In this document: positions 14,001-35,010 of the stretch, in pieces | Layout: each line of letters begins with the position of its first letter | Numbering within the stretch: position 1 is the stretch's first letter | Source of the DNA: Sugiyamaella lignohabitans | Taxonomy: Eukaryota; Ascomycota; Dipodascomycetes; Dipodascales; Trichomonascaceae | Assembly: GCF_001640025.1 (NCBI RefSeq) | Contig: NC_031671.1 | Location: 682,001-746,000, forward strand | Direction of reading: 5' to 3' | Length of the DNA: 64,000 nt | Notes under the pieces: generated by a model | What the model saw: only the letters and a program-made list of their open reading frames with translations | The model's database searches: none | What the model was told of the DNA's origin: nothing | Made by a program: the position numbers and the translations under genes

Positions 14001-14159
14001 CATTTCTAGTAAGATAATTTCGTGCCGACCTCTGCCGCTATTACTCAATTTGATTTATAGTCCAATGAAGGAACTCACTGGCCCGCCTTCTCTTTTCTTA
14101 GTTACAAATCTTTGTCTTGGACCTAAGCTTCTTTTATCTATACTATAGTTGACTATATC
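11090..14159. other. 3 kb gene-free AT-rich region with a diverged repeat
   Basis: Start of the accessory island. Short frames here have no conserved features. Contents that can be named: the dispersed repeat copy at 11873-12456, and on the minus strand near 12840-12980 a promoter-like arrangement (TATAAATAGG near 12970, then a CT-rich leader) without a convincing coding frame. Nothing else recognised. Confidence 0.5.
11873..12456 (+). repeat. dispersed noncoding repeat, copy 1
   Basis: Aligns by eye with 29226-29726. Shared words in the same order include ACAACGG, TGTGATCCTA-TAACTGA-TGCC, CAGTATAGACGG / CAGAATAGACGG, CTACCTGG, AATTCCAGTA / TTTCCAGTAA, GCCGGCGCCA and TCAGCGCC-GGTACTTT. Copy 1 carries about 70 extra AT-rich bases near 12300-12370. 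No open frame is shared, so it is probably a dead element or an old segmental duplication. Confidence 0.65.
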
Positions 14160-14313
14160 CAAATACTAGATGAGAATTATATTGATGAATAACGAATATC
14201 GGGCTCTGCCCGAGCTCGTTTGCCGGAGGCAATCAGAGGCACTCGTTGGGGGGACTACATACTTATGTATTTATAGCTATGGTGGTGGTTGCTTGTGGCC
14301 CGAGACCCTAAGC

Positions 14314-15588
14314 TTATTCCGATTCAAGCGTGATCTTGGCGATATCGCAGAATCGATCTAACTTACCCAAACTCATGAGAATCTCTGACTTCTTGGTCTG
14401 ATGTAGGTCCAAGGTATCAACTCCCATATCAAGGAGCTTCAGGTAAGCTTCATTGACTGCTAGTAGGTGTTTCAAGAGGGCTCGTCGGTGAATTCTAGCT
14501 TGCTCGACAGTAACCTTTAAACAAGTGAAGGTCAGCTTGTCATCGCAAGCACCACTGTAAGCGTAGCTAAGGTTCAAGCTATCCATAAAAGCTTCGAACT
14601 TCAAGTACTCTTTGGAACCATAGGAATAGTTAGTAAGTCTGGAAGGCAGGTTAGCAAGTCTGTTCAACAGACGTTGAGAGGGAACAGCGGTGGTGGCGAC
14701 CGAGGTGGGGTAAGCGGTGGTGCGAGGGGATGGCTTCGATGGCCTGGGAATAGAAGGGGCCTTGCGGGGGTTCATGTAGGTATCAGAGAGGGTTGAGGTT
14801 GTGGAGCGAGACGAGTTGTGGCTGGAGTGGTGACGGGAGCTGGGGTTAGAGCTGGAGTGAGAGCCGGAGTGAGAACTAGAGTGAGAGCTGGAGCGAGCGC
14901 TGGTGTGAGAACTGGACTGAAAGCTGCGAATTGAGTTAGGAGCACGGGTGGTTGAAGAGATAGGAGCTGCCATGGGGATAGAGGGGCAGGAGGTAGAGCG
15001 GGTATATCGAGACGAGAAAGGTGCGAGTGGAATGCGTTGAGAAGGAACGGATGAGGAAGAAACAGACCGGGTACGAGTTGCGGGTAATGGGGTAGAGGTT
15101 GCAAGTGGGGTGAATTGGTAGGTAGTGGGAGAACGTGAGCGGGAAGAAGAAGAGGAATGAGAGCTGGAGCGAGACGAGGAAGCAGTGGATGTTGAGCGGG
15201 TGGTGGAATGCGATGACAAATCGGAGCGAGTAGCAGAGTGTGAGGAGGATGATGTGGTTGAGTGGGTGGCTGAGTGTCTGGAATAGGAGGGAATTGATCC
15301 AGAAGAAGACGAAGCTGTAGAATGATGGAAAAGACGAGCTAGAGTGGCTGTGCTACCAGAAGTAGAAGCACTGCCGGAAGTTGTGGTGGAGGAAGAACGA
15401 GAACTGTGGCGGGAACTCGTAGTAGATTCGGTGCGGGAGACATTGGTAACAGTTCTGAGAGGGGATTGAATGGGTGGAGAGAAAGTGCGTTTGATAACGG
15501 TTGGGCGAGGTCTGGATTTGTAGGGTATGCGAGGGATAATTCGTAGAGCGGTTGCAGAAGTAGTGGCGTTGACAGTAGCACGATACAT
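14314..15588 (-). CDS. serine-rich protein of an unrecognised family, copy A, 424 aa
   Basis: I do not recognise a known family. Three parts are visible. A basic, Pro/Arg-rich N-terminus (1-50) contains PRIPYKSRPRP and the SPLRTVTN motif. A long low-complexity middle (about 50-290) is made of Ser with Thr, Arg and His. A non-repetitive, probably helical C-terminal domain of about 125 residues runs from RLANLPSRLTNYSYGSKEY to the end and has a Cys pair (CDDKLTFTC). The C-terminal domain is nearly identical in copies B and C while the middle varies in length, so the ends carry the constrained function. TATATAAG lies 65 bases before the ATG. The Ser/Arg middle suggests phosphorylation or an RNA/cell-wall scaffold role, but that is a guess. 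Confidence 0.8.
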   Translation of the reverse strand: MYRATVNATTSATALRIIPRIPYKSRPRPTVIKRTFSPPIQSPLRTVTNVSRTESTTSSRHSSRSSSTTTSGSASTSGSTATLARLFHHSTASSSSGSIPSYSRHSATHSTTSSSSHSATRSDLSSHSTTRSTSTASSSRSSSHSSSSSRSRSPTTYQFTPLATSTPLPATRTRSVSSSSVPSQRIPLAPFSSRYTRSTSCPSIPMAAPISSTTRAPNSIRSFQSSSHTSARSSSHSSSHSGSHSSSNPSSRHHSSHNSSRSTTSTLSDTYMNPRKAPSIPRPSKPSPRTTAYPTSVATTAVPSQRLLNRLANLPSRLTNYSYGSKEYLKFEAFMDSLNLSYAYSGACDDKLTFTCLKVTVEQARIHRRALLKHLLAVNEAYLKLLDMGVDTLDLHQTKKSEILMSLGKLDRFCDIAKITLESE

Positions 15589-15970
15589 TTTTGCTTAGTA
15601 CTAGAGAGAAAAGAAAAAGAAGAAAACAGAAGCAACAGCGGCCGAACGCGCGCTTATATAGACAGAAGAATTTCTTTTTCCACTTTGTTGTTGTGTCTGG
15701 TCATGTGGGTCGATATTTTCTTTTTTACAGTACACTTGCTGTGTGTGACCCTATTTCGTCAATGTACCCATTAATAGATACACAATCACACCGCACGCTC
15801 TTTATATGGTTCAAGGACCTAATGCCTTGTTTTTTCAATAAATCCCTGAGATACATCCTCTGCAATTTGAATCCTCAGCTCATGACATGGGTAACTTAGA
15901 CCACGCATGATATAAATCGCCTCAGGTAATTTAGCTCCATCACGATCTACGGATGATTGCATATTCCTTG

Positions 15971-16010
15971 TCTTATCTGCGTTATCTGAGTACGTGCTTA
16001 TCTTATCAAG
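15971..16010 (-). promoter_or_regulatory. GATA-site cluster upstream of copy A
   Basis: On the minus strand, CTTGATAAGATAAG (16010-15997) followed by two more GATAA/GATAAG words. Equivalent tandem GATAAGATAAG sites occur at about the same distance (about 410-430 bases before the ATG) in copies B and C. GATA factors in fungi control nitrogen, iron or light responses; which applies is unknown. Confidence 0.6.
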
Positions 16011-16020
16011 ATGCATATAA

Positions 16021-18528
16021 CTGGGACCCTATTATAGCGAGACCCGAAAAGAATGTCAGTCTCGTATGCCTAGATGATTCTTTAATAATCATTTCCTGTA
16101 CAACCGCCATGGTTTGCAAGAACTTAATTTTTAAAAGAATAATTATAACTTTTCAGCTTTCCACCTTGGGTGCAAAGTAACTCGATATAGGGGCATATCA
16201 CATAAGGAAGTGACCTGTCATTTGTAATATTTAGCCACAATCACCCACCTGTTTATTCTTTAGGAACCTCAACATTTTTCTGTAAATGATCTATCATCGT
16301 CACCAACAACTGCCAATTGTTGTTACGAGTAGTCTAAGTGAATTGTTGAGTTATTTTCGCTTGAGTACGAATTAAAGTCAGAATGTGTCATAAACTATAT
16401 ATAAGCAAGTGGTAGCACCTGTCATGTCATATGCACCTGCTCTTCTGTATTAAAGAAACAAGCCATATGAACAAGTAGAAGAGGTAACAAAATATAAAGA
16501 TATAGGAAAAGTGCACAATATATGTAAATGCTCAATGTGGCAAGGATATTGTCCTCAACGTGCTTACATAAGTTAGGTCTGGATCCAAAACAGGGTCTTG
16601 TCAGTATAGTATAATTATCTGCCCAGAATCTCATCGCTCATGATCGCGGTACACATGTCAAGGATATGCTTAAGAAATTTCAATGAATGTGACCTGCATT
16701 AAAAAAAGTACAGGTCACGAAATTATCCCTGTTACAGATCTTCACTAGTGGAGGCGAGCAGGATAAGAATGTAGCTTGGCCACTGAGCAAATACTGCTAT
16801 AGTACGTCATCGCTCATACAGTATGCCTAAGGCTTGTCTCTGGCACATGAACGTCGGACCCACCGAGAGTCCTTAATATCATCTTAACCAGCCTATACTA
16901 TTTTCAGGATTCATAGTAGAAGCATGTTAACATATTATGATTTGAGACATACCTCGGTCAAATAATCCATGTATTGACTGGAGGAGTTGACCAGGTAACA
17001 AGAATTATCATCACCCTCTGAGGTTTTTTTAAATGACAGGCTATTAAACGATTATATACAGGGATGCAATACCAGGATATCCCGACCCCAACTCAATGGT
17101 CAATAATAATTCTGAACAACGAAACCACGATCATTCTAAAACCAGGTCCAATTTGAGGCCATTTCAGCCCTCTCTCATTCGACCATTGTCCAAATAAAAA
17201 TGTGCTAAACGGTTTACGAAAAGGATCATCAAATGATTGGTACACGGTGAGTAATGACCATAAAAACTATTTACATGGAATGGTCTGTGGTATCAACTTA
17301 TATTTCGCAATATCACTCGATACCCGCTAATTCTATTAGAATTATACATACGCTGGAGTCGAGTTACTAAGCTCTGGCGCGTTGCTGCTGCATGGGTTTT
17401 GCAATATAGTTATGGCCTCCTTTGAGTCGTTACCTTCGGATATGACACTAGCCACCTCTTCTGAATGGATACCGCTACTAAACATTGATAAACTACCTAT
17501 TTGTACTACTTGGACAAAATCGCTGCGTTGTACCCAGATTTGGTGTATTATTCTTTCATGGCTCTTCATCTTTTTATTTCACACTACAGCATGACACTTC
17601 ACAATTGGTCAGTCTTACTCTCATCGCATTGCTTAATTATTCAATGCCTAGTTATGCAAGTTTTGGTTCAATCTATTTCTTTTTAGTGATATAGTCAGGG
17701 TTCTAGACTCAGCCTCCTACTCAGTTCGATGAGCACAACGGGCACTCTCACTATTCTACTTAAATATGTCACAATATATTAATATGTTGAACGTTTTCAG
17801 TAAAGTTGTTTCGGTCTGATGGCTGATCTTAATGATGTCCTATGCGACCCTAGATGGTAGCCCCGCAATATTCTAGCCGTTACTTTCATGATTTACCGAT
17901 ATTAGCTGGTGTGACCTTTAATCGATGACAATCAGTTTCCTACACAGATAAAATGTGTCTCTACTTTGAGTGCCCAATGATATCGCCAAATTCGAAACAG
18001 TGCTCAGGTGTCTTGGCTTGCGCTTTCAGGAATTGGACTTTTTCTAAGCCCACCTATATTTTAGATCCGATGGAGGATGGCTCTACTAACAAAGCCGTTC
18101 ACCATTTATCCGTCGGAACACTGATACTATATCTATCTGACTAGTACTCTTTCCCCAGATTGCTATCTTTGTATACTCTATAAGCCCCCCTCTCCACCAG
18201 CAGAATAACATGCGTCTGGATTGTAAGCAGCAGAATAATTTTACCATATACCCATAGAAAACACCATGATGAGAATTTGACGCCAACCCATGTTTGATTA
18301 GTAGACACTACTGGCATTTGGCCCGATATACAGAAAGACAGGAAATACTTATTGAACATTTCAGTAGAGATATATGTGCTTGAAGGAATCAATAATATGA
18401 AACCTTAACACAGGTAATTTAGAGTCTACATGTTGGCGAATGAGAGCTTGGGTAAAAAGCCCAGCTGCCTGTGACAGCCAGGCTAGTTTATTGGCTATAT
18501 ACATATAGAAATAGACTATATAAAGAAC
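16021..18528. other. 2.5 kb gene-free AT-rich region
   Basis: No frame above about 75 codons, no recognisable protein motif and no RNA gene seen on either strand. Probably decayed or regulatory sequence in the accessory island. Confidence 0.5.
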
Positions 18529-19539
18529 TTACAGGTAACTTCCAAGGAACGATTTCTTGGCCCAGGTACAAATAGAGTTAGATAGTCTAGAAGCAGTATT
18601 AGTGAGAAAGTTGTACCAGCCTGTTTCAGTTATTTGTATTGGTTCCACGATTCGATTTGTATCAGAAGTAGGCTGAGGCATCTCTGTCTGCTTGTTGTTG
18701 GTATCAGAAAGAGGGACTTCTTTCTCAGTAGCTTTGTCGTTGGAATTGGAAACTGATTCAGCGATTGATGCGGGGGTATTGGTGCGAGTATTCGCAGCAC
18801 AGACACGGCGTAAAAACTCAGGAGGGTATGCAAAGATCGAGCGGTAGACAGGGGGTTGGAATGTAAGTGGAACTGGACTGCTGGGGGTAGGGCAGCAACA
18901 AGTGTAAGGGTATGAAGGAGGGGGTCGGCCAGAAGGTGGGTATAAGGGCTTGCGCTTCTTGTACTCTCTCAAGTGAGGCACCGGCTTAGCACTGGCGAAC
19001 ATCGCTTTATATCTATCCGGTTCCGTGGGGTAAGGTTGCCATTGTTTTGATCGGTTGTCAGCCATAGTTTTCTCATTCTTTTCATTCTTCTCATTCTTCT
19101 CAATGTTCGCGTTGTTCTCATTATTCTCATTGCTCTCATTGCTCTCATTGTTGTTGTTTTGCGTTCCCTTCTTGTTCTTCTCACTGTTCTTGGCTTGCTT
19201 TCTCTTTTTTCTCTTCTCACTCTTTTTGATCATCTTGGCCCTTAGACGAAAAAACTGAGCCAAGCTAGAGGAAGAAGAACTTTTAGAAGTCGAAGTTGTA
19301 GCTTTCTTTATAGAACTGAAAGAAGAGTGTTCCAATTTGGCGGCTTCAGGAGTTTCGGCACTGTCAGAATCGGCATTGGAATCAAGGTCGGAGGCATTGG
19401 TAACTTCCCGGAGTGGGCTGTGCTGGTAAGGTATATGGTTGATGTTAAGGGTGGTGCGAGTAGGCCTCTTACGGTAAGGTACGCGAGGGAGAATCTTGAT
19501 AGAATTCACAATCAATGGTGCAGCTGAAGTAGAAGACAT
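18529..19539 (-). CDS. diverged paralogue of the serine-rich family, 336 aa
   Basis: The N-terminus repeats the family pattern: I-x-PR-x-PY-(K/R)-x-RP near residues 17-27, then SPLREVTN near 41-48 (SPLRTVTN in copies A-C). The rest differs: a Ser/Thr stretch, a highly charged Lys/Asn/Glu repeat region (about 110-165), a Pro/Tyr-rich segment with CCCPTPSSP (about 215-225), and a C-terminus without the conserved helical domain. I start at the ATG at 19539, which has the same AAAA-ATG context as the paralogues, rather than 19 codons upstream. TATATAAA lies about 65 bases before it and a GATAAGATAG site about 200 bases before it. Function unknown; secretion is not indicated. Confidence 0.72.
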   Translation of the reverse strand: MSSTSAAPLIVNSIKILPRVPYRKRPTRTTLNINHIPYQHSPLREVTNASDLDSNADSDSAETPEAAKLEHSSFSSIKKATTSTSKSSSSSSLAQFFRLRAKMIKKSEKRKKRKQAKNSEKNKKGTQNNNNESNESNENNENNANIEKNEKNEKNEKTMADNRSKQWQPYPTEPDRYKAMFASAKPVPHLREYKKRKPLYPPSGRPPPSYPYTCCCPTPSSPVPLTFQPPVYRSIFAYPPEFLRRVCAANTRTNTPASIAESVSNSNDKATEKEVPLSDTNNKQTEMPQPTSDTNRIVEPIQITETGWYNFLTNTASRLSNSICTWAKKSFLGSYL

Positions 19540-19687
19540 TTTTCCTAAGGAGGATAAGAAAAAAGAAGAAGAGAAGGAAGGATGCATCAACGCCACCCAT
19601 TTATATAAACAAATCCCCGTTTCTTTTTGTTGTTATTTTTGTTGTGGTAGCTGCGGCTAACTCGTTTCTTTTTTTAACAAGCGCGAC

Positions 19688-20269: not shown

Positions 20270-20281
20270 TTTAAGCTATAC
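20270..20281. repeat. candidate target-site duplication, left
   Basis: TTTAAGCTATAC, identical to 25744-25755. The pair brackets both LINE ORFs and fits a target-site duplication. On the element's strand it is GTATAGCTTAAA. Confidence 0.75.
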
Positions 20282-20557
20282 TATAATAATAATCAATATT
20301 AAAGTCCTAACACAATTATACAACAACATTAAAAATATTACTATACTCTCGGAATGATAGTAGGACTATTCTACTATTGGCCCCCTACAGGCTATACCTT
20401 CGTGTTGGTTTCAACATGTGCGCTAGATAGGCCGGATTCCCCAGAACCTCCCTTTCCGAGCAGTGGAAAACCTGAACACCTTTGAGTAACCTTAGTATTT
20501 ACTCCAGTGGTCAGGGGAAACCGCTGCTAGCTAATTCTCCTCAGAGAACGTGCTATC

Positions 20558-23500
20558 TTAGCTTAAAAGTGACGGATTCGCCTTAAGGAAGGAGGCGACC
20601 GCTTTGAGACCCTTTCGGGTATCAAGAAGAGATGGTAGATCCAGCTCACGGGATGCGTCGCGGAGGATCGGTCGATGTTGTTCAGTAAGTGGACAGTCTC
20701 GGAGGATATGCTCCACCGTTTCTTCAACTCCACATCGGCAATCATATCTACGATTACTGATTCGAAATCTCTGAAAGAACGAGCCCATTGCACCCATACC
20801 CGTTCTTAACTGAACCAACTTGCTTAGTTCTCCTCGCGGACTTTCATAAAGAAAAGGTCGCAGTGCATTCGCGTGCTTTGTAGAGTAGAGCCGGGGAGCT
20901 GTGAAGGACCGGTAAAAAGCTCCTTTCGGCGACTGAGTGTACTCTATCTCCCATTTTTGGTAGCATTGTGATCTAATTTCCTTGCGTATAGATTTCTTCT
21001 GGCTGCTTGCCTTAGATATGGCTTCACTGTCTCTGGAAGCCCAGGGGGGTTTCCAAAGTCTGTACCTGTCCTTTTTGATGTCCGTAACTTCAACTGTCCT
21101 ATACAATTCATCCAATCGGTCACCCAACATGGTTCCAAAGTATAGCTTTCTAGCTCGAATACGGTGGGGGTTATACCTATGAAGGTCACGATGGAGTCGT
21201 ACTAAATAATATTGTTCAGTTTCCAGCATTCTATGCTCAACAGGGGGGATTTCCGCGTCTCGGTGAAGGCTGACGATGGCCGTTGGTTTGTAGGCCCCTA
21301 AGATACTTCGGAGAGCTGCATTTTGGATCCTTTGGATAGCATCCTTTAATCCTTTTCTGATTCGATTGTACCAAATTGGACTGGCATACTCGAGTATAGA
21401 CCTAACACAGCTTTTGTAGAGGCATCTCATGGTAGCGCCAGTTACTCCTCGAGTAACTCCTCCCAAGCGACGAATGACATTTAACGCTGACTGGCCTTTG
21501 TTGATTACTGATTTAGCGTGCTCTTCGAACTTAAGTTGGCGGTCTATAGTGACTCCCAATAACTTTAGGGAGCTAGTTGCTTGAATTCTCTCCCCCGTGG
21601 GGAGTATGAGCCGCCTACACCCCTTTGGAGTTACACGTTTTGCAATGTGCATGAATCCCAGCTTCTCGCCGTAGTCAATGAACGCATGTGCTGAAGTTGC
21701 CCATTCATGGCATCGAGCTAAGATATTGCTCAGCTTGGCCGTGTTTTCTGCGTATCTAGTGCTCGATACATAGATGGTGATATCGTCGATGAATCCAATG
21801 ACTTTGCCGCCCATGCTTTTGATCAACGGATATAGCGGGCTCGTGTATATCAAGAATAGTAGTGGGGATATGGGCGAGCCCTGAGGAATACCCGTTGCTA
21901 TTCTACGCTCTTTAGTACGCTTCCCATCAATCACCAGGCTTGTTCGTCTTCCTCTCATAAATTGGTAAACCCAGTTCTGCACTGCTGTAGGTAGCCCCAT
22001 TCCCCCCATAGTGTTGAGGAGCGTGTCCCGGTGGACGTGATCAAAAGCTCCTTTGATATCTATGGCAAGGACTGAAGTAACCTGATCCCGCTTCATTCGT
22101 TTTTCAGCGTGATGCACAAGCTTGTGGGCTGCTTCCACTGCGGAGTAGCCATGACGACCACCATACTGATCTACTGGCAGCATTCCACTGGTTAGAGCTG
22201 TCAGTCGACGTTGCATAATCTTCTCCAGAACTTTGCCTAATGTACTCAGTAGTGTAATCGGCCGGTAGGACCGCGCCAATGCAGGATCTCGCTTTCGTTT
22301 GGGAATAACGACAGTGATTCCTTCTCGAAAGCATTTTGGATGATAGCCAACTCTAACACAGTACTGTAGAAGGCCCTTCAGCAGTTTACGGAAGCGTATC
22401 ACTGCCCACGCTCGTTTGATAGCGACTGTTTTGACTCCATCGGGCCCGGGAGCCTTGTTGGGCGCTTGATCGCGTATGGCGTCTTCGATTTCTTGCATAC
22501 GTAGGCTCTTCCATTGGCCGGTTTTGACCACTTTGAGCAATCTTCTCGTCGAGGGCTTGACCTGCGGAAACAAACCCCGATAAAGTTCCTCTTCCTGCTC
22601 TTCAAATGTTTGAGCCAATTCGCCGGTTTCCAACCGGAGGGCGGGCATTATCGGTACTGGTTCGCGAGGTTTGATCATCTTAAGTGCGTCATAAATGTCG
22701 GTTCCACGACATGAGGCGAGGTATGAGTTCCAGGTGTTGGTCTTGGCCTCTAGAATCTTAGAGGCATACTCCTCGTTAGCTTGCTGCCGCAGCCTTCTAT
22801 TCTCCTCAGTGGGCTGACTGCGTGCTCGTCTTCGAGCTCTAACAGCGTCGCGCTTGGCCTGTCGTAATTCAGGTGTCCACCACCTCTTGCTCCTAGGAAC
22901 AATCTTCAATTTTGGCACCGCCTCATCCAAACAATCACAGAGCAATCCAATAAGCTGTGTGGCGTATCTGTCTGCGACTTTGTGTGTGGATTTTCGATTG
23001 CTGTAGCCCCGGAGTTTCTTGGGAATGGTTATCAGAGCCGCTCGGGAGTCCAAAACCTTCTCGAACTTTTCCCAATCAGCCCGCTTATAATTGTACCTTC
23101 CACCATAGGTTTGAAGCAACTCAATGTCTAATGGATTGGTGTCGATCCTCCATTTCTGAAGGTAATGGTCTGAGCCTACATCTTCACTCTTCTCTGGCGT
23201 GATGGTTATGTTTGGGGTTGCGAATGTTAAATCGATCGTATTGCCAAAAATATGAGTTGGAACATTCGGCACCGTAGCTAGTAGGAGTCCATTGTCGTTA
23301 ACCCAATCTGCCCAGCTGTTTGCCTCTCTGGTGACTTGCTCAGTGCTCTGCCACATAGGATGATGAAGATTAAAATCTCCTGCGATAATAATGAGTTCTG
23401 GAATTTGAGGGAGTAAAGTCTTGTAATATTCCACGGGGTGGATATCTTCGCTCATGCGGTTGTATATGTTAGTGATATAAAGTTGACCAAGTTGGATAGT

Positions 23501-23806
23501 AACCACATTCTCGGTGGTGAGTTCCCCCACCATTTTCAGTTGAGACTGGCCGTATATTCTCTTGTTGATATAAGTTATTGCGTTGATTCTCCCTGTCTGG
23601 GACTGTGTGTGGACGGCTACCCAAGCGCTATGTTGGATCGGGTGCTGTCCCAGGTTGAGACCCGGCTCCTGGAGTAGAAGTAGGTCGAAGTCTGCAAACA
23701 TGTCCTGGACGTGGTGTGTTACCGATATTTGCTTTTGGCAGTTCAGCTGGGCTACTCGCAAAGGAGCGGTCAGCTTATTGTCGCTCAACTTCGTTCTCTG
23801 ATTCAT
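20558..23806 (-). CDS. LINE ORF2: endonuclease and reverse transcriptase
   Basis: An uninterrupted frame. I use the ATG at 23806, giving 1082 residues and a 32-base overlap with ORF1; the same frame is open to an ATG at 23971 (1137 residues). In 1137 numbering, endonuclease motifs are LNC (76-78), QEP (101-103), AGDFNLHHP (197-205), TIDLTF (245-250) and SDH (267-269). Reverse transcriptase follows: KAPGPDG (506-512), AIDIKGAFD (636-644), GIPQGSPISP (694-703) and the catalytic FIDD (727-730), a variant of YADD. The C-terminal C-x-C-x7-H-x4-C sits at 1078-1093, typical of RNase H-lacking LINEs. It nicks the target DNA and copies the element RNA in place. All catalytic residues that I can check are present. 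Confidence 0.92.
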   Translation of the reverse strand: MNQRTKLSDNKLTAPLRVAQLNCQKQISVTHHVQDMFADFDLLLLQEPGLNLGQHPIQHSAWVAVHTQSQTGRINAITYINKRIYGQSQLKMVGELTTENVVTIQLGQLYITNIYNRMSEDIHPVEYYKTLLPQIPELIIIAGDFNLHHPMWQSTEQVTREANSWADWVNDNGLLLATVPNVPTHIFGNTIDLTFATPNITITPEKSEDVGSDHYLQKWRIDTNPLDIELLQTYGGRYNYKRADWEKFEKVLDSRAALITIPKKLRGYSNRKSTHKVADRYATQLIGLLCDCLDEAVPKLKIVPRSKRWWTPELRQAKRDAVRARRRARSQPTEENRRLRQQANEEYASKILEAKTNTWNSYLASCRGTDIYDALKMIKPREPVPIMPALRLETGELAQTFEEQEEELYRGLFPQVKPSTRRLLKVVKTGQWKSLRMQEIEDAIRDQAPNKAPGPDGVKTVAIKRAWAVIRFRKLLKGLLQYCVRVGYHPKCFREGITVVIPKRKRDPALARSYRPITLLSTLGKVLEKIMQRRLTALTSGMLPVDQYGGRHGYSAVEAAHKLVHHAEKRMKRDQVTSVLAIDIKGAFDHVHRDTLLNTMGGMGLPTAVQNWVYQFMRGRRTSLVIDGKRTKERRIATGIPQGSPISPLLFLIYTSPLYPLIKSMGGKVIGFIDDITIYVSSTRYAENTAKLSNILARCHEWATSAHAFIDYGEKLGFMHIAKRVTPKGCRRLILPTGERIQATSSLKLLGVTIDRQLKFEEHAKSVINKGQSALNVIRRLGGVTRGVTGATMRCLYKSCVRSILEYASPIWYNRIRKGLKDAIQRIQNAALRSILGAYKPTAIVSLHRDAEIPPVEHRMLETEQYYLVRLHRDLHRYNPHRIRARKLYFGTMLGDRLDELYRTVEVTDIKKDRYRLWKPPWASRDSEAISKASSQKKSIRKEIRSQCYQKWEIEYTQSPKGAFYRSFTAPRLYSTKHANALRPFLYESPRGELSKLVQLRTGMGAMGSFFQRFRISNRRYDCRCGVEETVEHILRDCPLTEQHRPILRDASRELDLPSLLDTRKGLKAVASFLKANPSLLS

Positions 23807-25694
23807 TAGGCGAAGTGGTGCCTGAAGAAGCGGCACTGAGGGTTTCGACGTGTTGTGAAGGGGCAACCAACGGGGGAAGCGACGTAGTGGTGCTGGAAGA
23901 GACAGCGCTCTGAGGTTCGCGAGGCGGAGGGTGGGAATCTGAAGTTGACTCCTCTCCTGACCAAACCGCATTGCAGGATTCAGCCTGTTGCGATGTTACA
24001 TTCGGTGGGGATTGCAGTGAGGTGCCGGAAGAAGCAGCACTGTCAACTTCGCCAGGCGAAGTGGAAGAATCCGAGGTGTGATCTGATACCTTGTTGGAAG
24101 AAGCATCGTTGAGTGATTCAGCATGTTGGGAAGTGGCAGTCAGGGGAGACTGCGATGGAGTGTCAGAAGAAGCGACACGACTTTGTCCTAGGCTGGTGCC
24201 GGAAGAAGCAGCACTATCAGGTTCGCCAGGCGAAGTGGAAGAATCCGAAGTGGGGTCTGATACCTTGTTGAAGGAAGCACCGTTGAGAGATTCAGCGTGT
24301 TGGGAAGTGGCAGTCAGTGGAGACTGAGTTGGAGTGCCAGAAGAAGCGGCACTACTTTGTCCTGGACGTCGGATGAGAGTTACCGGTCGGATTGGACCGC
24401 GTTTGTCGCTAGCAGCCTGCCACGGATAGACTCTCCGCTTCATATCGGCGCACAGGAGACCGTAACGCAGAAGCTTGTTGCACTCAGTCAGTGAAACCAG
24501 AGTGAGAACTATAGACATAGCCTTCGTCGTGGGGTCGGACATTCTTTTGGGCGTGAGCCACCGGATTGGGCTTGCCAACTTCACATCGTTCGCAAACTCG
24601 ATTTCTTCGTGATATTCATCTAAGTTGGTGTCCTTCGGGATTCCATGGACTACACACTTATACCAAGGGGTGTTATCCATGACCTCACCGTACTGTTGAA
24701 TAGTCTCTGTAAACTTCTCAGGGATATCGCCTTTGAAATGGACTCTGACATTATTCTTGGGCGTGAGCGTAAGAGCCACGACCGATTTCCCTTCACCCAT
24801 TTGCTGATTAAGTTTACTTACCAGTTCACTGCGTGAAGGTACGTCGGGTCCAAGTTTGACAACCTTGAAATTAGACCGGGCTGGTAGACTAGCAACCTTC
24901 TGGGCTGCTTCGACCGCCTCCTGTTCGCGTATTATTGCTGCTAGATCCACAGATTGAAGTTTATTTGCTACCCATTTCTTGGCATGGGTAACTTCTCGGC
25001 GCATGAGGCCAGCTTTGGCTTGAACACGAGCTTCAGTTGCCGCAGTCTGCTCCGCGAATTTAAATTCACGAGAATTACTCTCACGCACCATCTTGCCAGT
25101 GTAAGTCGCGAGGCTTTCTTGACTCTTCTCTACCGTTTTAAGGCGTTCTTCTAGGTAGGCAATTTTCTCTTTGTGCTTGGTCTCGCTTGCGGCTACGTGT
25201 TTACGTATAGCTATCAACTCATTGTCTTTGGCTGCGCTGTCCTTCTTAATCCTTTCCATTGCGGTATTATACTTGTTGATAGTGGCATTGCTCTGTTTAA
25301 TTACTTCTTCTTGTTGTTTAAGGAGTTTGGCTTGTTGGTTGTTGGTTTCGGCTTGTTGATTGGCGATTGCTTTGAGCTTCTCGATTTCTGACGCGAGCAC
25401 CGCCATAGACGCGGCATCCTTTACCAAATTAATTGTTTCAGGCTCAGTAGGAACCGGGGTGGCTTCAAAGTATTCATCTTCGGCTTCAGAGCAGTCGGTT
25501 ACTTCATCCCATGGAAGTGAAAGCGTCGACGCGTTTACCATTGCGTCGCTGCTTGCGCGTTCCTCCATGGTTTGAGGCTCCATCACGTCCGGAGACCGCT
25601 GAATGCGGGTGCGCTCGGGGTTGTCAAGTAACTGAAATAAAGGTCGGCTTGAATTTCGCGTTGTTCTGGTCTTATTCGTGGTGTTTATGACCAT
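23775..25694 (-). CDS. LINE ORF1: coiled-coil RNA-binding protein
   Basis: 639 residues. An acidic N-terminal region (1-95) is followed by a long coiled coil rich in Gln, Lys and Glu (about 100-225). A globular segment follows (about 275-430) with the WYKCVVHGIPKDTN motif, which resembles the RRM-like domain of fungal Tad-type ORF1 proteins. The C-terminal 190 residues are Ser/Thr/Pro-rich and internally repeated. No CCHC knuckles are seen. The protein would bind element RNA and form particles. It ends 32 bases inside ORF2, a different frame, so ORF2 translation may depend on reinitiation; that is inference. Confidence 0.85.
   Translation of the reverse strand: MVINTTNKTRTTRNSSRPLFQLLDNPERTRIQRSPDVMEPQTMEERASSDAMVNASTLSLPWDEVTDCSEAEDEYFEATPVPTEPETINLVKDAASMAVLASEIEKLKAIANQQAETNNQQAKLLKQQEEVIKQSNATINKYNTAMERIKKDSAAKDNELIAIRKHVAASETKHKEKIAYLEERLKTVEKSQESLATYTGKMVRESNSREFKFAEQTAATEARVQAKAGLMRREVTHAKKWVANKLQSVDLAAIIREQEAVEAAQKVASLPARSNFKVVKLGPDVPSRSELVSKLNQQMGEGKSVVALTLTPKNNVRVHFKGDIPEKFTETIQQYGEVMDNTPWYKCVVHGIPKDTNLDEYHEEIEFANDVKLASPIRWLTPKRMSDPTTKAMSIVLTLVSLTECNKLLRYGLLCADMKRRVYPWQAASDKRGPIRPVTLIRRPGQSSAASSGTPTQSPLTATSQHAESLNGASFNKVSDPTSDSSTSPGEPDSAASSGTSLGQSRVASSDTPSQSPLTATSQHAESLNDASSNKVSDHTSDSSTSPGEVDSAASSGTSLQSPPNVTSQQAESCNAVWSGEESTSDSHPPPREPQSAVSSSTTTSLPPLVAPSQHVETLSAASSGTTSPNESENEVERQ
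24019..24367 (-). repeat. in-frame tandem duplication within LINE ORF1
   Basis: Two units of about 175 bases, each starting GTGCCGGAAGAAGCAGCACT on the plus strand (24019 and 24196), with more diverged partial units towards 23830. The unit length keeps the reading frame and produces the repeated Ser-rich C-terminus. Confidence 0.8.
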
Positions 25695-25743
25695 TCAATT
25701 CTCTATTAGAAACAGGGATTTTGCGCTCCCCAAAGTAAACTAC

Positions 25744-25755
25744 TTTAAGCTATAC
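25744..25755. repeat. candidate target-site duplication, right
   Basis: TTTAAGCTATAC, the partner of 20270-20281. It lies immediately outside the 5' end of the LINE on the minus strand. Confidence 0.75.
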
Positions 25756-25954: not shown

Positions 25955-26074
25955 AGTTACGGCCATATCTAGAGTAAAATAAGATTTCCCGTCCGATCAA
26001 TCATATTCAAGCCTCTAAGAGCCTTGATCAGTAATGCCGTGGGAGACCAGGCGTGAACAGAAGGTGCTGTAATT
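25955..26074 (+). rRNA. 5S ribosomal RNA gene (dispersed copy 1)
   Basis: A 120-base 5S gene recognised by conserved blocks: GGCCATATCT near the 5' end, CCCGTCCGATCAA in loop B/helix III, AAGAGCC in the box A region, and GGGAGACCAGGCGTGAA with GGTGCTG near the 3' end. Helix I closes between AGTTACG (5') and TGTAATT-type 3' sequence with A-U, G-U, U-A, U-A, A-U, C-G pairs, which sets the ends. T-runs follow directly (26073-26085), as expected for RNA polymerase III termination. It stands alone, away from any 18S/25S sequence. It differs from the other copy at about 20 positions. Confidence 0.93.
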
Positions 26075-26085
26075 TTTCTTTTTTT
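26073..26085 (+). terminator. RNA polymerase III T-run terminator
   Basis: T5 at 26073-26077 and T7 after one C, immediately at the 3' end of the 5S gene. Confidence 0.8.
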
Positions 26086-26516: not shown

Positions 26517-26917
26517 CCGCCACAGACATAGATCATGGTGATAAGGTGCGGATTGTGTGATCACCGGTCGATCATGTTGAAACTTAATTACTTAATGCAA
26601 CTCAAATCGTGCGTAACCTTGATTATCCTTGTTATGAGGGATGGACAAATCCAAGTCGACTTGTAGCTCAAAAAAAAAGAACCATTAGGCACTGTAAATA
26701 ATGGTCAGAGAGTGCGGCGTTAACTTTGTATCTATTAATGGGTACATTGACCGAAATAAGATCACAGCAACTGCAACAGAAAAAGAAACCGTCAATTCAC
26801 ATGACCACTCAATCAAAACGAACCAGAAAAAGAAACATTTTTTTGTTTATATAAGAGTGCTTTCGGCTGCTGCTGCTCTCTTCTTCTTTTTCTACCCCCT
26901 TACAGTTACAAGCAAAA

Positions 26918-28135
26918 ATGTACCGCGCTCGTGCTACTGCCGCTACCGCCGCTACTTCTGCAAACGCCCTTCGCGTTATTCCTCGCATACCCTACAAATC
27001 CAGACCTCGCCCAACCGTCATCAAACGTACTTTCTCTCCACCCATCCAGTCCCCTCTCAGAACTGTTACCAATGTCTCCCGCACCGAATCCACTACGAGT
27101 TCCCGCCACAGTTCTCGTTCCTCCTCCACCACAACTTCCCGCAGTGCTTCTACTTCTGGTAGCACAGCCACACTAGCTCGTCTTTTCCATCATTCTACCC
27201 CTTCGTCCTCTTCTGAATCCGTTCCCTCTTACTCCAGACACTCAGCCACCCGCTTTACCTCATCATCCTCTACCTCTTCTTCTTCCTCGCATTCCACCAC
27301 CCACTCCACAGCTACATCCTCATCTCGCTCCACCTCTCATCCCTCTTCTTCTCGCTCACGTTCTCCTACTACCTACCAATTCACCCCACTCGCCACCTCT
27401 ACCCCATTACCAGCAGCTCGCACCCGTTCTGCTTCTTCCTCATCCCTTCCTTCTCACCGCATTCCACTCGCTCCTTTCTCATCTCGAAATACCCGCTCTA
27501 CCTCCTGTCCCTCTATCCCAATGGCAGCTCCTATCTCTTCAACAACCCGCACTTCTTTTAACTCAGTTCCCAGCTCTCGCCCCAGCTCTCACTCCAGCTC
27601 TCACTCCAGCTCCCATCACCACGCCAGCCACCATTCATCTCGCTCCACAACTTCAACCCTCTCTGATACCTACATGAACCCCCGCAAGGCCCCTTCTATT
27701 CCCAGACCATCGAAGCCATCGCCTCGCACTACCTCTCACCCCGCATCCATCACCACCACCGCGGCTCCCTCTCAACGTCTGTTGAACAGACTTGCTAACC
27801 TGCCTTCCAGACTTACTAACTATTCATATGGTTCCAAAGAGTACTTGAAGTTCGAAGCTTTTATGGATAGCTTGAATCTGAGTTACGCTTACAGTGGTGC
27901 CTGCGATGACAAGCTGACCTTCACTTGTTTAAAGGTTACTGTCGAGCAAGCTAGAATTCACCGACGAGCCCTCTTGAAGCAACTACTGGCAGTCAATGAA
28001 GCTTATCTGAAGCTCCTTGATATGGGAGTTGATACCCTGGACCTTCATCAAACCAAGAAGTCAGAGATTCTCATGAGTTTGGGTAAGTTAGATCGATTCT
28101 GCGATATCGCTAAGATCACGCTTGAATCGGAATAA
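26918..28135 (+). CDS. serine-rich protein of an unrecognised family, copy B, 405 aa
   Basis: Intact paralogue of the protein at 14314-15588 with the same three-part layout: a basic N-terminus with PRIPYKSRPRP and SPLRTVTN, a Ser/Thr/His low-complexity middle (about 50-270), and a C-terminal domain from LLNRLANLPSRLTNYSY onwards that is almost unchanged (one visible change in the HRRALLK(H/Q)LLAVNEAYL segment). The middle lacks several Ser-His repeats present in copy A, a pattern expected from slippage in low-complexity DNA. ATG in AAAA-ATG context, TATA box 63 bases upstream. Codon choice keeps the coding strand strongly pyrimidine-rich in the middle. Function unknown. Intact frame plus conserved ends argue that it is expressed. 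Confidence 0.8.
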   Translation: MYRARATAATAATSANALRVIPRIPYKSRPRPTVIKRTFSPPIQSPLRTVTNVSRTESTTSSRHSSRSSSTTTSRSASTSGSTATLARLFHHSTPSSSSESVPSYSRHSATRFTSSSSTSSSSSHSTTHSTATSSSRSTSHPSSSRSRSPTTYQFTPLATSTPLPAARTRSASSSSLPSHRIPLAPFSSRNTRSTSCPSIPMAAPISSTTRTSFNSVPSSRPSSHSSSHSSSHHHASHHSSRSTTSTLSDTYMNPRKAPSIPRPSKPSPRTTSHPASITTTAAPSQRLLNRLANLPSRLTNYSYGSKEYLKFEAFMDSLNLSYAYSGACDDKLTFTCLKVTVEQARIHRRALLKQLLAVNEAYLKLLDMGVDTLDLHQTKKSEILMSLGKLDRFCDIAKITLESE

Positions 28136-28330
28136 GCTTAGGGTCTCGGGCCGCAAGCAACCACCACCATAGTTATAAATACATAAGTATGTAGTCCCCC
28201 AAACGAGTATCTCTGATTGCCTCCGGCAAATGAGCTCGGGCAGAGCCCAATATTTCATATTTATCAATGTAATGCTCATTCTGAGTATTTTTATATAATC
28301 AAGTATAGTTCAGATAAATAACGCTTCAGA

Positions 28331-29225: not shown

Positions 29226-29726
29226 CAGCAGACAAAACAACGGCTTCTCTACTAGCCCGGCATCTGTCTGCTGACACCTGTTTCGAGTGCTCACCCATCC
29301 TCCTAAGCTGTACACCTCACCTAGTCCACTATTCTAGGAGCCCGGCGATACCCCTGCATCCCTGCTGCAAGCTGTAGAATATAAGCCAAGTCTGCCAATG
29401 AATGTCCCGTCAACATGGCTCCATATCCCCAAAAACGCCAATAGGACTTCTCCACTTTATCCACCAGGTGTGATCCTAGTAACTGACTGCCCTCACTGGA
29501 TAGCTTGGAGTGTACCACCCAGAATAGACGGCAGTGAATAAATAGCGCCGATCTATATCCGACCCCTGTCCGCTAACTGAGATAGCATCAGATACACGAC
29601 CACCCTACCTGGGTAGTACTCCCAATTTCCAGTAATTCAATCTCATTTGCAGGGTATAGACGGCAGCCAGGCCGGCGCCAATCTAGTTCGGCATCTATAG
29701 GCCTATTTCAGCGCCAGGTACTTTAG
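29226..29726 (+). repeat. dispersed noncoding repeat, copy 2
   Basis: Partner of 11873-12456, same orientation, about 17.3 kb apart. Collinear conserved words include ACAACGG, GTGTGATCCTAGTAACTGA, CAGAATAGACGGCA, CTACCTGGGTA, TTTCCAGTAATTC and GGCCGGCGCCAAT. Many scattered substitutions suggest that it is old. Confidence 0.65.
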
Positions 29727-31367
29727 ACTAAGCTAGTCGAACATTTTGCGGAGTCACAGCTAACTGTTTTCAGTTCGATTGTGGAACTTTGATTCAGCTA
29801 ATGGTCTCCGGAGATATTGATAGGTTATTGGGGCTATTAGACTGGACCGAACAAGACGAGACGTGCTGGTACTTGCCTTGAAAAATTCTCTTGCTACTAT
29901 TGGTGGTCGAAAATTTCATAGCAAGTGTGTCCCAGTAGACCCAAATTAGTCACTCCTGAACCAAAACAGATATACTTCATCGAAATATGATTTATTTTCA
30001 ATATTAACGGGATATTGCTCTCCTGCTTGGTGAGTACTTTGTTCCCGTTTGAATTGGTAGAAATCTGGGGCTCGTAATACTAGTCTAAACCATACACACA
30101 AGATGCACTAAAGTTCCTTTGAAGTGTGTCATATTTTGGCAACATTGAGGTGAGAGGATGAAGTATCTCATGTCATATTAACAGGGTTCCTACACTGCTC
30201 ATGATAACTTTGTATCAACCATAGCACTCGATCAAACAGCATACATGAACCTCCCTTACTTCTTACTACCGCCTTGAATTGCATGTGTTCTAAGACCATG
30301 GTTAACTGCGACTTTCACTAACTTCACTAATATCTGGGCACGCAACTAGTCCCATAATGGGTATGCGGATTGGAATAACTGTGAATAGCCGATTAAGCTA
30401 GATAATATACCACTTGTCGTCATACTCGGTATTATATATGAATAGTCGCAGGCAGGTATGAGCAATTTGATATATTAGCCCCAGCCCCATGGTTCTTCAA
30501 TCGGAAACTGTTCAATCTATATCGTGTAACCGAACACATGAGTTATTCAAATAGAGGATGGACACAGTAGTAGATATGCTTTATTCAAGTAGAGTATATT
30601 AGTAGTTACAGTAGTAGAATAGAGTACAATAGAGTAAAGTAGAATAGAGTGGTAGAGACCAAGTAGAGACTAAGTAGAGTGATGTCCATGAGACACAGTA
30701 GAGAGTAGAGCTTTTTTTTTTCAGGGTTTTCATTTAGGATTCTTTTTTTTTTTGCGAGGGTTTTCATATTTTCCTTTTTTCAAACAGAGGTAGTAGAGAG
30801 TAGTAGAGAGTAGAAAAACCAGACAGAGACCGAGAAACCAAAGAGAAAATAGACCAAGAGAAGAACAGAGAGCCATTGAGAGAAACCAGAGCAGCGTGAG
30901 TTGTAATGTTACCAAAGTGTAGTGGTGTGGTGATGGAGCCAGTTTTAGCGAACAACAATCTGTGTGATGATTTAAATTGACACCCGATCTTGTGATGAAG
31001 GATTGTGAGTTTGAAAACATGTCGAACCGCAGACAGCGGCGCCAGTGTAGTAAAACCTCAGTAGGGGTGGGAGATCGGGATGACTAGAAGTGATATCCAA
31101 GGATGGCGACTCTGAGGAAGCCACAATCAAATTGCAAAACTAGGCGCAGCAAGGAGCGCGCCACTGTTAAGACTCATGATTTCAATGGATGATTGTTGTA
31201 CTAGTAGTCATAGTCAAGTGGTGTGTTGTTGTCCAGATTGTTGAACGACTGGATGCAAGTGATGGTGAAGTAGTGATGAGTCGGTGCTTTGGTGTGGTTC
31301 CAGTGCTGCAAAAGACTGGCTGGTTCCTCTATTGAATGGCAGTAATAACCAAGAGCGGTTGATGGCT
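29727..31367. other. gene-free region with AG-rich satellite
   Basis: No convincing gene. 30570-30720 is a low-complexity tract of AGTAGAGTA-type words, and 30714-30755 holds T-runs. A minus-strand frame at 30730-31020 is hydrophobic but arises largely from this low-complexity DNA, so I do not call it. Confidence 0.45.
30570..30840. repeat. AG-rich low-complexity satellite (AGTAGAGTA words)
   Basis: Irregular repeats of GTAGA, AGTAGAGTA and GTAGAGA over about 270 bases, broken by two T-runs near 30715 and 30745. Confidence 0.7.
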
Positions 31368-31820
31368 TTAATAGCCGAGAGTGCGGAGCGTGCATTTTCG
31401 CACCGCTTTCCAAGACCTGGTGATGGCACGTTTAACCGTAAGAGGCTTGGGTTTAGGTGGAGGTGGTGGTTTGGGATAGACTGGGACCGGAATAGTTCGA
31501 AAGACCCGTTTGGGAGGAGGAGGAGGACGGTTGGCACGTTCAAGAGCCCGTTGAGCCTTCCATTCCTGTGTTTCCCGCCACAACTTTTGAATCTTCTCTC
31601 TCTCAGTCAAGGCTCTAGGTGGGTCCTCGACAACTTCAACCACAACAACAGGTTCAGGTTCAGTTACCTCACCACAGTCAACAAGGACTAGAGCGGGGTG
31701 GATGTCATACCAATACCAGACAGTGAGGAGTAAAAAGGTAAACAATAGGTGAAGAGGGTCCTCATGGACAGAAACACTGAAGATAGCGTGAGCTAAAACA
31801 GTAGACACAATAAAAGTCAT
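31368..31820 (-). CDS. small membrane-anchored proline-rich protein, 150 aa
   Basis: Unrecognised. The ATG at 31820 (context CAACA-ATG) is preceded at 97-103 bases by TATAAAT, so the transcript likely begins after an upstream in-frame alternative start, which I reject. Residues 1-45 contain a hydrophobic N-terminus and a strong membrane segment (about 22-42) ending YWYDIHP. Next comes an acidic Val/Glu/Pro stretch, then a charged helix (about 72-92). A proline-rich tail follows with PPPPPKR and PKPPPPPKPKP, ending in a basic Arg/Lys segment. The tail order R-x-IP-x-P-x-Y...KP...VKR faintly resembles the basic N-terminus of the neighbouring serine-rich family. Confidence is limited to a plausible gene. 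Confidence 0.5.
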   Translation of the reverse strand: MTFIVSTVLAHAIFSVSVHEDPLHLLFTFLLLTVWYWYDIHPALVLVDCGEVTEPEPVVVVEVVEDPPRALTEREKIQKLWRETQEWKAQRALERANRPPPPPKRVFRTIPVPVYPKPPPPPKPKPLTVKRAITRSWKAVRKCTLRTLGY

Positions 31821-33170
31821 TGTTGATCGACGAAGAAGTAATTTTGACTTGAGAGAATTGATTTGTGAAAAAAAGTGATAGTGAAGAAGAAGAGAATACG
31901 GGGGGAGAAGACGCATATTTATAATTTTTGGGCTCTAGCGTAACCTGCCGTGCTTGTACATAGCCCCCATAACGAGTTCGCCTTTTGTTGTTGTTCCTAC
32001 AGAAGCAACGCACTGAATGCGGTATCGGTACACTGTGCCCATAAACTTCCCAAAAACTACCCCTAACCTACTGCAATGCAATGCGAGGTGATGCATGGAA
32101 GATGCAGGGAAGGTCTGGAAGGGGTATTCTTAATCAAAATCCATAATATTCCCAAAAACTACCCGTAACCTGATGCAATGCAATGCAGCACCTGTGGGGA
32201 GCAGTGCCTAATCTGGTATTTAAGCATAAATTTCCTAAAACCTATGCCTAACCTGATGCATAGTCCCGTGCAAATCGGTTGAAGCCATCGGTGACCCGGT
32301 GCGGTCTAAAGCATGGAACCCCAGTATTCCGTAACTTATATCACAAGCTGACAGGTTTAATCTTCAGTTTACTTCAGTAGTCTAGAGAGACCATGCCTAG
32401 GGTTCAATCAGGAGTAAGCCCATCGTGGCGGCTGGTAAGCTAAACCCGATCGTGATGACTCTCGCTCGTCACAAGTTGATATACCTGTTCTCCGCAGTTG
32501 TGTTTCCTGGGGTTACTTTTCAAGCACTACGTCCACTAAAAGTGTCCGTGCTGTTTCATTTAGCTAACCTTTGACAAGTCCCAATCCGTCTCGGCCTAGT
32601 TTGCTTCTTCGCTTACTTCAGAACGCAATTACCTGAGTGATTTTGTCCAGATACTCCAAGGGGATAGCTTAAATGCGCGCTATCATTCAATTGCTATTAG
32701 ATGCCTGTCAATATCTGATTCCATTAAGATGTATTCGTCAACTGAGTTGAACATCACAGTCCCAGAATGCTATTAAGTACAATGCCTGCGAAAACTAAAA
32801 AACGAACATGGACAAATATATTCTACTAATGCTGAGTAAGTATTCTGCCCTTACCTTATTGGTAAACTGTACATGCTGACATTGGACCCTGAAGGAAATG
32901 CAGATGAAATAGAGGGAGGTCATCTAATTCTATTATCGCGTTCCATTTACAGCGTAGGGCCCCACCCCCCGAACTCTTCGCTGGAATGATCATATATCCT
33001 GTTATTACAATAGTCTATGTGATACAAGACCGTCTAGACAAAGCGTACGATGGCAGGCTCAAAAACCTCATTCACTGGCAAAAATACAAACCATAGTCAG
33101 TACGGATTCGATCCATTCATAATGTGACAGGTCAGCAATGAGCTCAGATTTCTAGCAGGGCTTGTATGCA
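31821..33170. other. spacer with short tandem repeats
   Basis: Carries the promoter of the small proline-rich gene (TATA at 31917-31923, minus strand) and three imperfect repeats at 32046-32262. No other gene seen. Confidence 0.45.
32046..32262 (+). repeat. three imperfect repeats, period about 80-100 bases
   Basis: Cores start at 32046, 32149 and 32229: TTCCCAAAAACTACCC, TTCCCAAAAACTACCC and TTCCTAAAACCTATGC, each followed by (G/C)TAACCT-TGCA. The first two continue into GCAATGCAATGC. Each is preceded by CATAA. Confidence 0.75.
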
Positions 33171-33176
33171 TGCACG

Positions 33177-33190
33177 CTGATAAGATAAGC
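33177..33190 (+). promoter_or_regulatory. tandem GATA site upstream of copy C
   Basis: CTGATAAGATAAGC, 430 bases before the ATG at 33607, followed within 25 bases by AGATAAGATAG. TATATAAG is at 33535-33542. The promoter is kept although the gene is frameshifted. Confidence 0.55.
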
Positions 33191-33606
33191 ACGTAACTAG
33201 ATAGCACAGATAAGATAGAAATATGCAATCATCGGTCGATCGTGATGGAGCTTAATTATCCAGGCGATTCGAATCGTGCGTATTCTTGGATATCCTTGTT
33301 TGGTCTAAGGATTCTATAAGTCGCCGATGTGTAGTTCAGGGCTTTATCGAAAAAAACGAATCATTAGGAGCCATGGTCTATAGTCACAGGGTGCGGCGTG
33401 ACTTTGTATCTATAAATGGAGACATTGACCGAAATAGAGTCCTAGCCACAACAAATGCACCCGGAAAAAGAAATTCTCAACTCAACATGATCCAAGCACA
33501 AACACAACAAAGTGGAAAAAGAAATTCTCCTGTCTATATAAGGGCGCGTTAGGCCTCTGTTGCTTCTGTTCTCTTCTTCTTTTCTTCTCTCTAGTACTAA
33601 GCAAAA

Positions 33607-34793
33607 ATGTATCGTGCTACTACCACCGCCGCTACTTCTGCAAACGCCCTTCGAGTTATTCCTCGCATACCCTACAAATCCAGACCTCGCCCAACAGTCA
33701 TCAAACGTACCTTTTTCTCCACCCATCCAGTCACCTCTCAGAACCGTTACCAATGTCTCCCGCACCGAATCTACTACGAGTTCCCACCACAGTTCTCGTT
33801 CTTCCTCCACCACAACTTCCCGCAGTGCTTCTACTTCTGGTAGCGCAGCCACTCTAGCACGTCTTTCCATCATTGTACTGCTTCGTCCTCGTCTAGCTCC
33901 AATCCCTCCTACTCCAGACACTCGGCCCCCCGCTCTTCCACGTCATCCTCTACGCCTTCTTTTTCCTCATATCCCACCACCCATTCCACATCCACTGCTT
34001 CCTCGTCTTGCTCAATCTCTCACTCCTCTTCTTCCCGCTCACGTTCTCCCACTACCTACCAATTCATCCCGCTTGCCACCTCTACCCCATTACCTGCAGC
34101 TCGCACCCGGTCTATTTCTCCTCATCCGTTCCTTCTCAACATGCTCCACGCGCTTCTTTTTCGTCTCGCAATACCCGCTCCACCCCCTGTCCCTCTATCC
34201 CCATGACATCTCCTATCTCTTCAACCACCCGCACTTCTTCTAACTCAGTTCCCAGCTCTCACTCCAGCTCCCGTCACCACGCCAGTCACCATTCATCTCG
34301 CTCCACAACCTCAACCCTCTCTGATACCTACATGAATCCCCGCAAGGCCCCTTCTATTCCCAGACCTTCGAAGCCATCGCCTCGCACTACCGCTTATCCC
34401 ACTTCCATCACTACCACCGCTGCTCCCTCTCAAAGTCTGTTGAACAGACTTGCTGACCTGCCTTCCAGACTTACTAACTATTCATATGGCTCCAAAGAGT
34501 ACTTGAAGTTCGAAGCTTTTATGGATAGCTTGAACCTTAGCTATGCTTACAGTGGTGCTTGCGATGACAAGCTGACCTTCACTTGTTTAAAGGTCACTGT
34601 CGAGCAAGCTAGAATTCACCGACGAGCCCTCTTGAAACAACTACTGGCTGTAAACGAAGCTTACCTGAAGCTCTTTGATATAGGAGTTGATACCCTGGAC
34701 CTCCATCAAACCAAGAAGTCAGAGATTCTCATGAGTTTGGGTAAGTTAGAGCGATTTGGCGATATCGCCAAGATTACGCTTGAATCGGAATAA
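33607..34793 (+). pseudogene. frameshifted serine-rich family member, copy C
   Basis: Aligned by eye with copy B it shows three frame changes: one extra base in the T-run near 33711-33716, one lost base in CGTCTTTCC near 33863-33866, and one lost base near 34112-34120. The starting frame therefore stops soon after the conserved N-terminus. The final third (about 34210-34793) is open and still encodes the conserved C-terminal domain with only a few substitutions (for example a Cys-to-Gly change in the last 20 residues). It is either a young pseudogene or expressed from an internal start; sequencing error in homopolymers is also possible. I describe the breaks only. Confidence 0.75.
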
Positions 34794-35010
34794 GCTTAGG
34801 GTCTCGGGCCACTAGCTACCTCCACCATAGCTATAAATACAAGTATGTAGTCCCCCAAATGAGTACCTCTGATTGCCTCCGGCAAACGAGCTCGGGCAGA
34901 GTCCGAGTTTTGTTACTTATCAATGTAATGCTCATTCTGACTATTTCATGAATAATAAAGTTTAGATAATGAGGGCTCGAGTCCAAGACAAAAATTTCTA
35001 CCTAAGATAT

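Follow-up and report, generated by a model that had tools for sequence, protein, structure and literature searches.

What kind of serine-rich gene is repeated three times within a short region of the Sugiyamaella lignohabitans genome, and what keeps its copies there? The question is raised by a stretch of 64,000 nucleotides (C3:682001-746000, hereafter the window; positions given without a contig name are counted within it), taken from a genome of 15,932,016 bases (15.93 Mb) in four contigs. A preliminary description of this stretch had proposed three units in which promoter, gene and 3' flank are all shared, and comparison of the units at ~14045-16013 (-), 26560-28308 (+) and 33228-34965 (+) bears this out: they are homologous from the promoter through the gene to ~170-270 bp of 3' flank, with DNA identities of ~82-90%. 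The local amplification seen in that description is real, but the family, here called A, has 12 copies in the genome rather than three, and two further families, B and C, which are co-amplified and interleaved with it, had been overlooked. The reading favoured here, on balance still tentatively, is that A, B and C form a lineage-restricted, locally amplified cassette of three host genes, in which A and B would be disordered adaptor proteins.

Three interleaved families on one contig

DNA comparison across the genome places all 12 A copies on contig C3 between 643.8 and 1063.9 kb, and a query with the C-terminal domain alone returned 12 matches, all in the same interval (whole genome, 12 of 12 candidates scored, E up to 10). 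Eleven are single open frames of 405-432 residues that start with MYR. The encoded proteins begin with a basic N-terminus, whose first 55 residues include no more than one acidic one. The middle spans 230-255 residues and contains 50-54% Ser and Thr and 14-16 His in the 11 intact copies, and the C-terminus of ~120 residues is 95-100% identical across all 12 copies. The nearly invariant C-terminal domain and the Ser/Thr/His middle of variable length were thus correctly recognised from the three units. Two of these units are intact, with genes of 424 residues at 14314..15588 (-) and 405 residues at 26918..28135 (+); in the latter, the conserved domain of 120 residues lies at 27773..28132 (+). 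The third (33607..34793, +) is a pseudogene and the only broken A copy. Its frame is lost near 33.71 kb, leaving an N-terminal piece of 78 codons and a C-terminal piece of 196 codons as ATG-started frames. A spliced first exon for A was considered and rejected: a KEN-like string occurs in 2/6 upstream open reading frames (ORFs) of one group and is not conserved in the remaining copies.

Family B has six loci, all on C3 (at 640, 700, 959, 968, 1018 and 1066 kb), each of them 2-3 kb from an A gene. The intact copy in the window (18529..19539, -, within the ORF 18529-19587) encodes 336 residues from MSSTS and has an N-terminal module in common with A. Family C has six close copies on C3, at 647, 713, 878, 962, 1026 and 1059 kb, which are 88-100% identical; that in the window (31368..31820, -, within the ORF 31368-31916) is intact and encodes 150 residues from MTF. 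The C protein has a hydrophobic N-terminal part and a Pro-rich, basic tail, and in the one protein measured its hydropathy over a 19-residue window reaches a borderline 1.61 once. A seventh C copy (C3:1167376-1167840, +), ~100 kb past the last cluster, is divergent (39%) and interrupted, and weak matches to C on C1 and C4 (E 0.05-0.08) are taken as chance.

The 24 copies (12 A, 6 B and the 6 close C) are packed into 427 kb, from 640.4 to 1067.2 kb of C3. Under uniform placement in 15.93 Mb this gives a log10 P of about -35, a crude figure in that the copies arise from each other; chance is excluded as the source of the clustering. Along the contig, the clusters lie at 640-654 kb (in the order B A C A), 696-717 kb (A B A C A, the final A being the broken one), 774 kb (a single A), 878-882 kb (C A), 956-969 kb (A B C A B), 1018-1029 kb (B A C A) and 1059-1067 kb (C A B), so that the order B A C A is found in two of seven. 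When the stretches around the loci are compared at the DNA level, two recurring blocks emerge. In one, at four of the six B loci, B and A have the same orientation; the other, at four of the six C loci, is a divergent C-A block of 4.4 kb. The latter occupies 30608..35022 (+) in the window and is found again at C3:877.5-882.0, 961.4-966.0 and 1025.0-1029.7 kb. A further duplicated stretch of 1.3 kb, with no convincing gene, lies near two clusters (C3:649556-650873 and 694314-695627, 90.8%).

The 5' module common to A and B

The N-terminus of A, used as a query, matches each of the six B copies (E values 5e-8 to 9e-7, ~40% identity). Comparison of the two family profiles aligns residues 13-59 (47 columns, 49% identity, E 2.4e-7), and beyond these residues it yields one other alignment, which is insignificant (E 0.4). 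The likeness continues upstream of the genes. The A core promoter at 26808..26917 (+), with TATATAA at ~-70, is conserved across the 12 copies, and the core promoter of the B gene in the window (19540..19649, -) is homologous to that of the A copy at 709 kb (A709), sharing AAAAAGAAA, TTTGTTTATATAA and a CT-rich leader. The core promoters of A709 and of the B copy at 700 kb (B700) align with a score of 54, against a mean of 15.3 and a maximum of 27 in 500 block shuffles; 11 other promoters of the window, compared as a control, score 10-20. The promoter match and the profile match confined to the N-terminus together indicate that one 5' unit, made up of a core promoter and a basic module of 47 residues, carries two different bodies, A and B.

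Homology of C to A or B was also considered and is rejected. Its profile aligns to theirs with hhalign E values of 0.19 and 0.35, and its promoter scores 24 against A and 26 against B, both inside the shuffle range; the likeness of its Pro-rich tail to A and B is one seen by eye only, and the profile and promoter tests reject it as homology.

The shared module ends in SPLR[TE]VTN in 17/17 intact A and B proteins, with SPLR invariant. All 17 therein conserve a site of the type [ST]Px[KR], which is the consensus for cyclin-dependent kinases (CDKs). The destruction box of substrates of the anaphase-promoting complex/cyclosome (APC/C) has the consensus RxxLxxxxN. The PLR-x-VTN of A and B resembles the right half of this box and overlaps the CDK-type SPxR; however, the full box is found in 0/11 A and 0/6 B proteins, where QSPLRTVTN or HSPLREVTN stands in its place, and all 17 intact proteins have Gln (A) or His (B) where the box has its defining arginine.

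In all 12 copies, the A promoter comprises a TATATAA-type box at ~-70, a pyrimidine-rich leader and CAAAAATG at the start. Two further elements stand out from an upstream mean major-base fraction of 0.77: GAAAAAGAAA at -92 (mean 1.0) and a GATAAGATAA pair at ~-423 (mean 0.92). The tandem GATAAGATAA, a GATA pair, is present in 10/12 A promoters and in none of the six B or six C promoters. The earlier hint that these genes may respond to nitrogen limitation is thereby given some basis in sequence; by itself the pair shows nothing. The meiotic FLEX core, GTAAAYA, is hardly enriched. It occurs in 2/12 A, 2/6 B and 2/6 C promoters, at means per 600 bp of 0.17, 0.33 and 0.33, respectively, against 0.18 in the window. 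CACATG or CATGTG is present in 11/12 A promoters, at 1.33 per 600 bp, whereas the window has 0.27.

Selection, relatives and surroundings

Substitution patterns do not support the earlier characterisation of the A genes as fast-evolving. The pooled ratio of nonsynonymous to synonymous polymorphism (pN/pS) over the 11 intact copies is 0.31 in the N-terminus, 0.42 in the middle and 0.11 in the C-terminus, and it is only the length of the middle that changes readily. The ratio is 0.12 for C (six copies) and 0.16 over the first 60 columns of B (five of six copies, B640 having been excluded because its start motif differs). No value above 1 was found in A by region, in B or in C, and 23/24 copies have open frames. 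Mean pairwise synonymous divergence (dS) of A is 0.26. Half of this, 0.13 substitutions per site, was taken for each line, a figure that ignores shared history and conversion; counting substitutions only, ~4% of neutral A frames would survive at that divergence and 26% at 0.05, against the 11/12 observed. Judged by these patterns, the copies of all three families have been kept working by purifying selection.

The A copies have also exchanged sequence. Sites close to one another conflict less often than permuted ones (mean incompatibility 0.388 against 0.504 for the 12 copies, and 0.383 against 0.497 in the coding part alone, with 0/500 permutations as low in either case), and the nearest relative of a copy switches along its length. 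Because of both results, the copies are best described as mixed by gene conversion. The ends of homology vary between pairs of A units, lying between ~0.14 kb and more than 3 kb upstream of the start on the left, and from ~0.1 to 0.7 kb past the stop on the right.

Searches for relatives agree with the earlier view that the family is unrecognised, fixed at its ends and elastic in its centre. No Pfam or NCBIfam model matches A, B or C over its curated cut-off, and the best matches below threshold are MCD_N for A (E 0.19), TIGR00993 for B (0.032) and NF046050 for C (0.083). The C-terminal domain of A has no match among the sequences of the PDB. Against 5.8 billion proteins, nothing was found with A at full length (the 7986 candidates with the most words in common scored) or with its C-terminal part alone (106 candidates); these searches used A queries only and candidates of 0.55-1.75 times the query length, so that short annotated pieces could escape them. 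The ADE1 protein of the same contig is present in that database at 100%, as are its nearest named orthologues, from Nadsonia, Blastobotrys and Trichomonascus, at 68-71% identity, and the lack of an A match is therefore not due to yeasts missing from the database. Since A does not match even itself while ADE1 does, the deposited annotation probably lacks the A genes or has them truncated. The profile search that had been proposed for the C-terminal domain gave no family over its cut-off, and the structure predicted for the domain, at low confidence, combines a helix with two short strands and a helical hairpin (predicted local distance difference test score, pLDDT, 60; predicted template modelling score, pTM, 0.48). 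Judged by title and abstract opening, none of the papers found in literature searches on the species or its gene families deals with A, B or C, although the genome paper (doi 10.1093/femsyr/fow037) may mention them, and nothing relevant was found on amplified disordered yeast families. Linkage to the mating-type locus was a candidate that was not retained. The MATalpha model matched nowhere, controls included, and is hence uninformative. Of the ANTH (SLA2-like) matches, the best lies on C1 and a weak one at 2.08 Mb of C3, which speaks weakly against linkage.

Several other features lie around the genes. A long interspersed nuclear element (LINE) retrotransposon of two ORFs, with Pfam endonuclease and reverse transcriptase domains, occupies 20281-25743 (-), between the B gene and a 5S ribosomal RNA (rRNA) gene; a second copy at C3:655330-660499 is 98.8% identical over 5.17 kb. 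Set against B968, where the locus is uninterrupted, the LINE junction has ~11 overlapping bases, a candidate target-site duplication. Genes for 5S rRNA lie upstream of 3/6 B copies, at 25955-26075 (+) in the window, L025:7029-7149 (-) and L026:8542-8662 (+), a survey that covers those three copies, the sequence compared falling short of that position at the others. These dispersed 5S genes seem to have been duplicated together with the B copies. Another 5S rRNA gene is at 61420-61540 (-). An INO4-like gene of the basic helix-loop-helix type (35614-36165, -) adjoins the array and may be linked to the CACATG or CATGTG of the A promoters. The gene at 49869-51311 (+) encodes a protein of RNA-binding appearance, judged by eye, with a long tail of Arg-Asp-rich repeats in which other frames are open too.

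Host cassette, selfish element or dosage

If A, B and C are a cassette of host genes, it would have spread by segmental duplication within ~427 kb of one chromosome, a process that the varying ends of homology fit better than they do a mobile element. A and B may then be intracellular, largely disordered, basic adaptor proteins, whose shared N-terminal module, with its CDK-type SPLR, would bind a common partner or be phosphorylated by it. The Ser/Thr-rich middle would serve as a linker tolerant of changes in length, and A and B may each bind targets of their own through their distinct C-terminal parts. The number of copies would serve dosage, since conserved ends joined by a loosely constrained linker are unlike the product of an arms race. 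Several points weigh against this interpretation. The phosphorylation and adaptor roles are read from motifs; A and B are not obligate neighbours, six of the 12 A copies having no B within 3 kb; and B is weakly constrained overall (pN/pS 0.50, five of six copies). The promoter likeness is also much less clear for A696 and B700, which score only 26 against a shuffle maximum of 23, and the fold matches of the weak C-terminal model (pLDDT 60) are at background, with none significant.

A plainer account, unlikely without being far-fetched, is that all A copies do one identical job and are amplified purely for dosage, with B and C carried along in the duplicated blocks. The 95-100% identity of the A C-termini, the shared TATA promoters, gene conversion and the weak overall constraint on B would all fit; however, purifying selection acts also on C (0.12) and on the N-terminal module of B (0.16), and the families are paired repeatedly, in several arrangements, which hints at more than hitch-hiking. 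A mobile element carrying the units as cargo or as its own internal genes is very improbable. Their dispersal in both orientations, and the LINE inside one cluster, might suggest it, but the ends of homology differ from pair to pair, A, B and C have no Pfam match to a mobile-element domain, there is no clear copy outside one stretch of 427 kb besides the divergent C at 1167 kb of C3, and the LINE, 98.8% identical to its second copy, is a separate recent insertion. It is scarcely credible that the units are non-functional repeats with open frames arising by accident from serine-rich composition: although the middle is of low complexity, and the A proteins, absent from the protein database even as self-matches, seem unannotated, the C-terminal pN/pS of 0.11 and the 11/12 intact frames speak against it.

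The wtf genes of fission yeast, which have a bias to chromosome 3 and encode multi-spanning proteins, suggest a further alternative, in which A, B and C would be selfish spore-killing drivers and their suppressors. This is improbable, and weaker than the interpretation as host genes. The confinement to one chromosome, the clustering, gene conversion and variable-length middle, together with the lack of relatives of A among 5.8 billion proteins, are as would be expected of such drivers, and the bias to one chromosome is common to both systems. Against them stand the purifying selection, the near absence of FLEX enrichment and, in contrast to the multi-spanning wtf proteins, the lack of any strongly hydrophobic stretch in the A and B proteins measured (peak 19-residue hydropathy 0.86 and 0.74, one protein per family). 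Pfam contains a wtf model, and no Pfam model matched A, B or C over its cut-off, a comparison made through models rather than with wtf sequences directly. The wtf drivers have dual, overlapping poison and antidote transcripts; A, as read from DNA, is one continuous frame in 11/12 copies. Equally doubtful is a broader version, in which a 5' unit of promoter and CDK-type, destruction-box-like peptide was joined to different bodies and amplified with a small partner protein, all within a single chromosome of a single yeast lineage, to give a system tied to the cell cycle or to meiosis that might include a selfish driver and its suppressors.

Two wtf papers allow a closer comparison. They describe drive loci on chromosome 3 (PMC5478261) and gene conversion, expanding and contracting repeats, changes in copy number and lineage restriction (PMC6526906); many copies, conversion, length-variable internal repeats and lineage restriction are found in the present cluster too. 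Rapid evolution with frequent decay is not: pN/pS is 0.11-0.50 by region and family and never above 1, and 1/24 copies is broken, whereas 5/25 wtf genes are annotated as pseudogenes in the reference, according to PMC6526906. A, B and C differ further in that two partner families have been co-amplified.

The families offer eleven intact A genes under clear selection that were not found, by A queries, in a protein database that does hold ADE1 of the same contig and many other yeasts. With amplification limited to one chromosome, gene conversion and the 5' module common to A and B, they make a compact test case for the origin of an orphan family and for the joining of a promoter-plus-peptide module to new bodies, as well as for using substitution patterns to tell dosage families of the host apart from selfish families. 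The maintenance of the cluster by selection would point to a useful but lineage-specific role. Locally amplified, species-specific families are familiar from yeasts, among them DUP240 and PAU of Saccharomyces cerevisiae. Like these, A, B and C are dispersed or tandem gene copies restricted to one lineage; unlike them, they have no Pfam match, three families are interleaved, and two of the three share a promoter and an N-terminal module but not a body.

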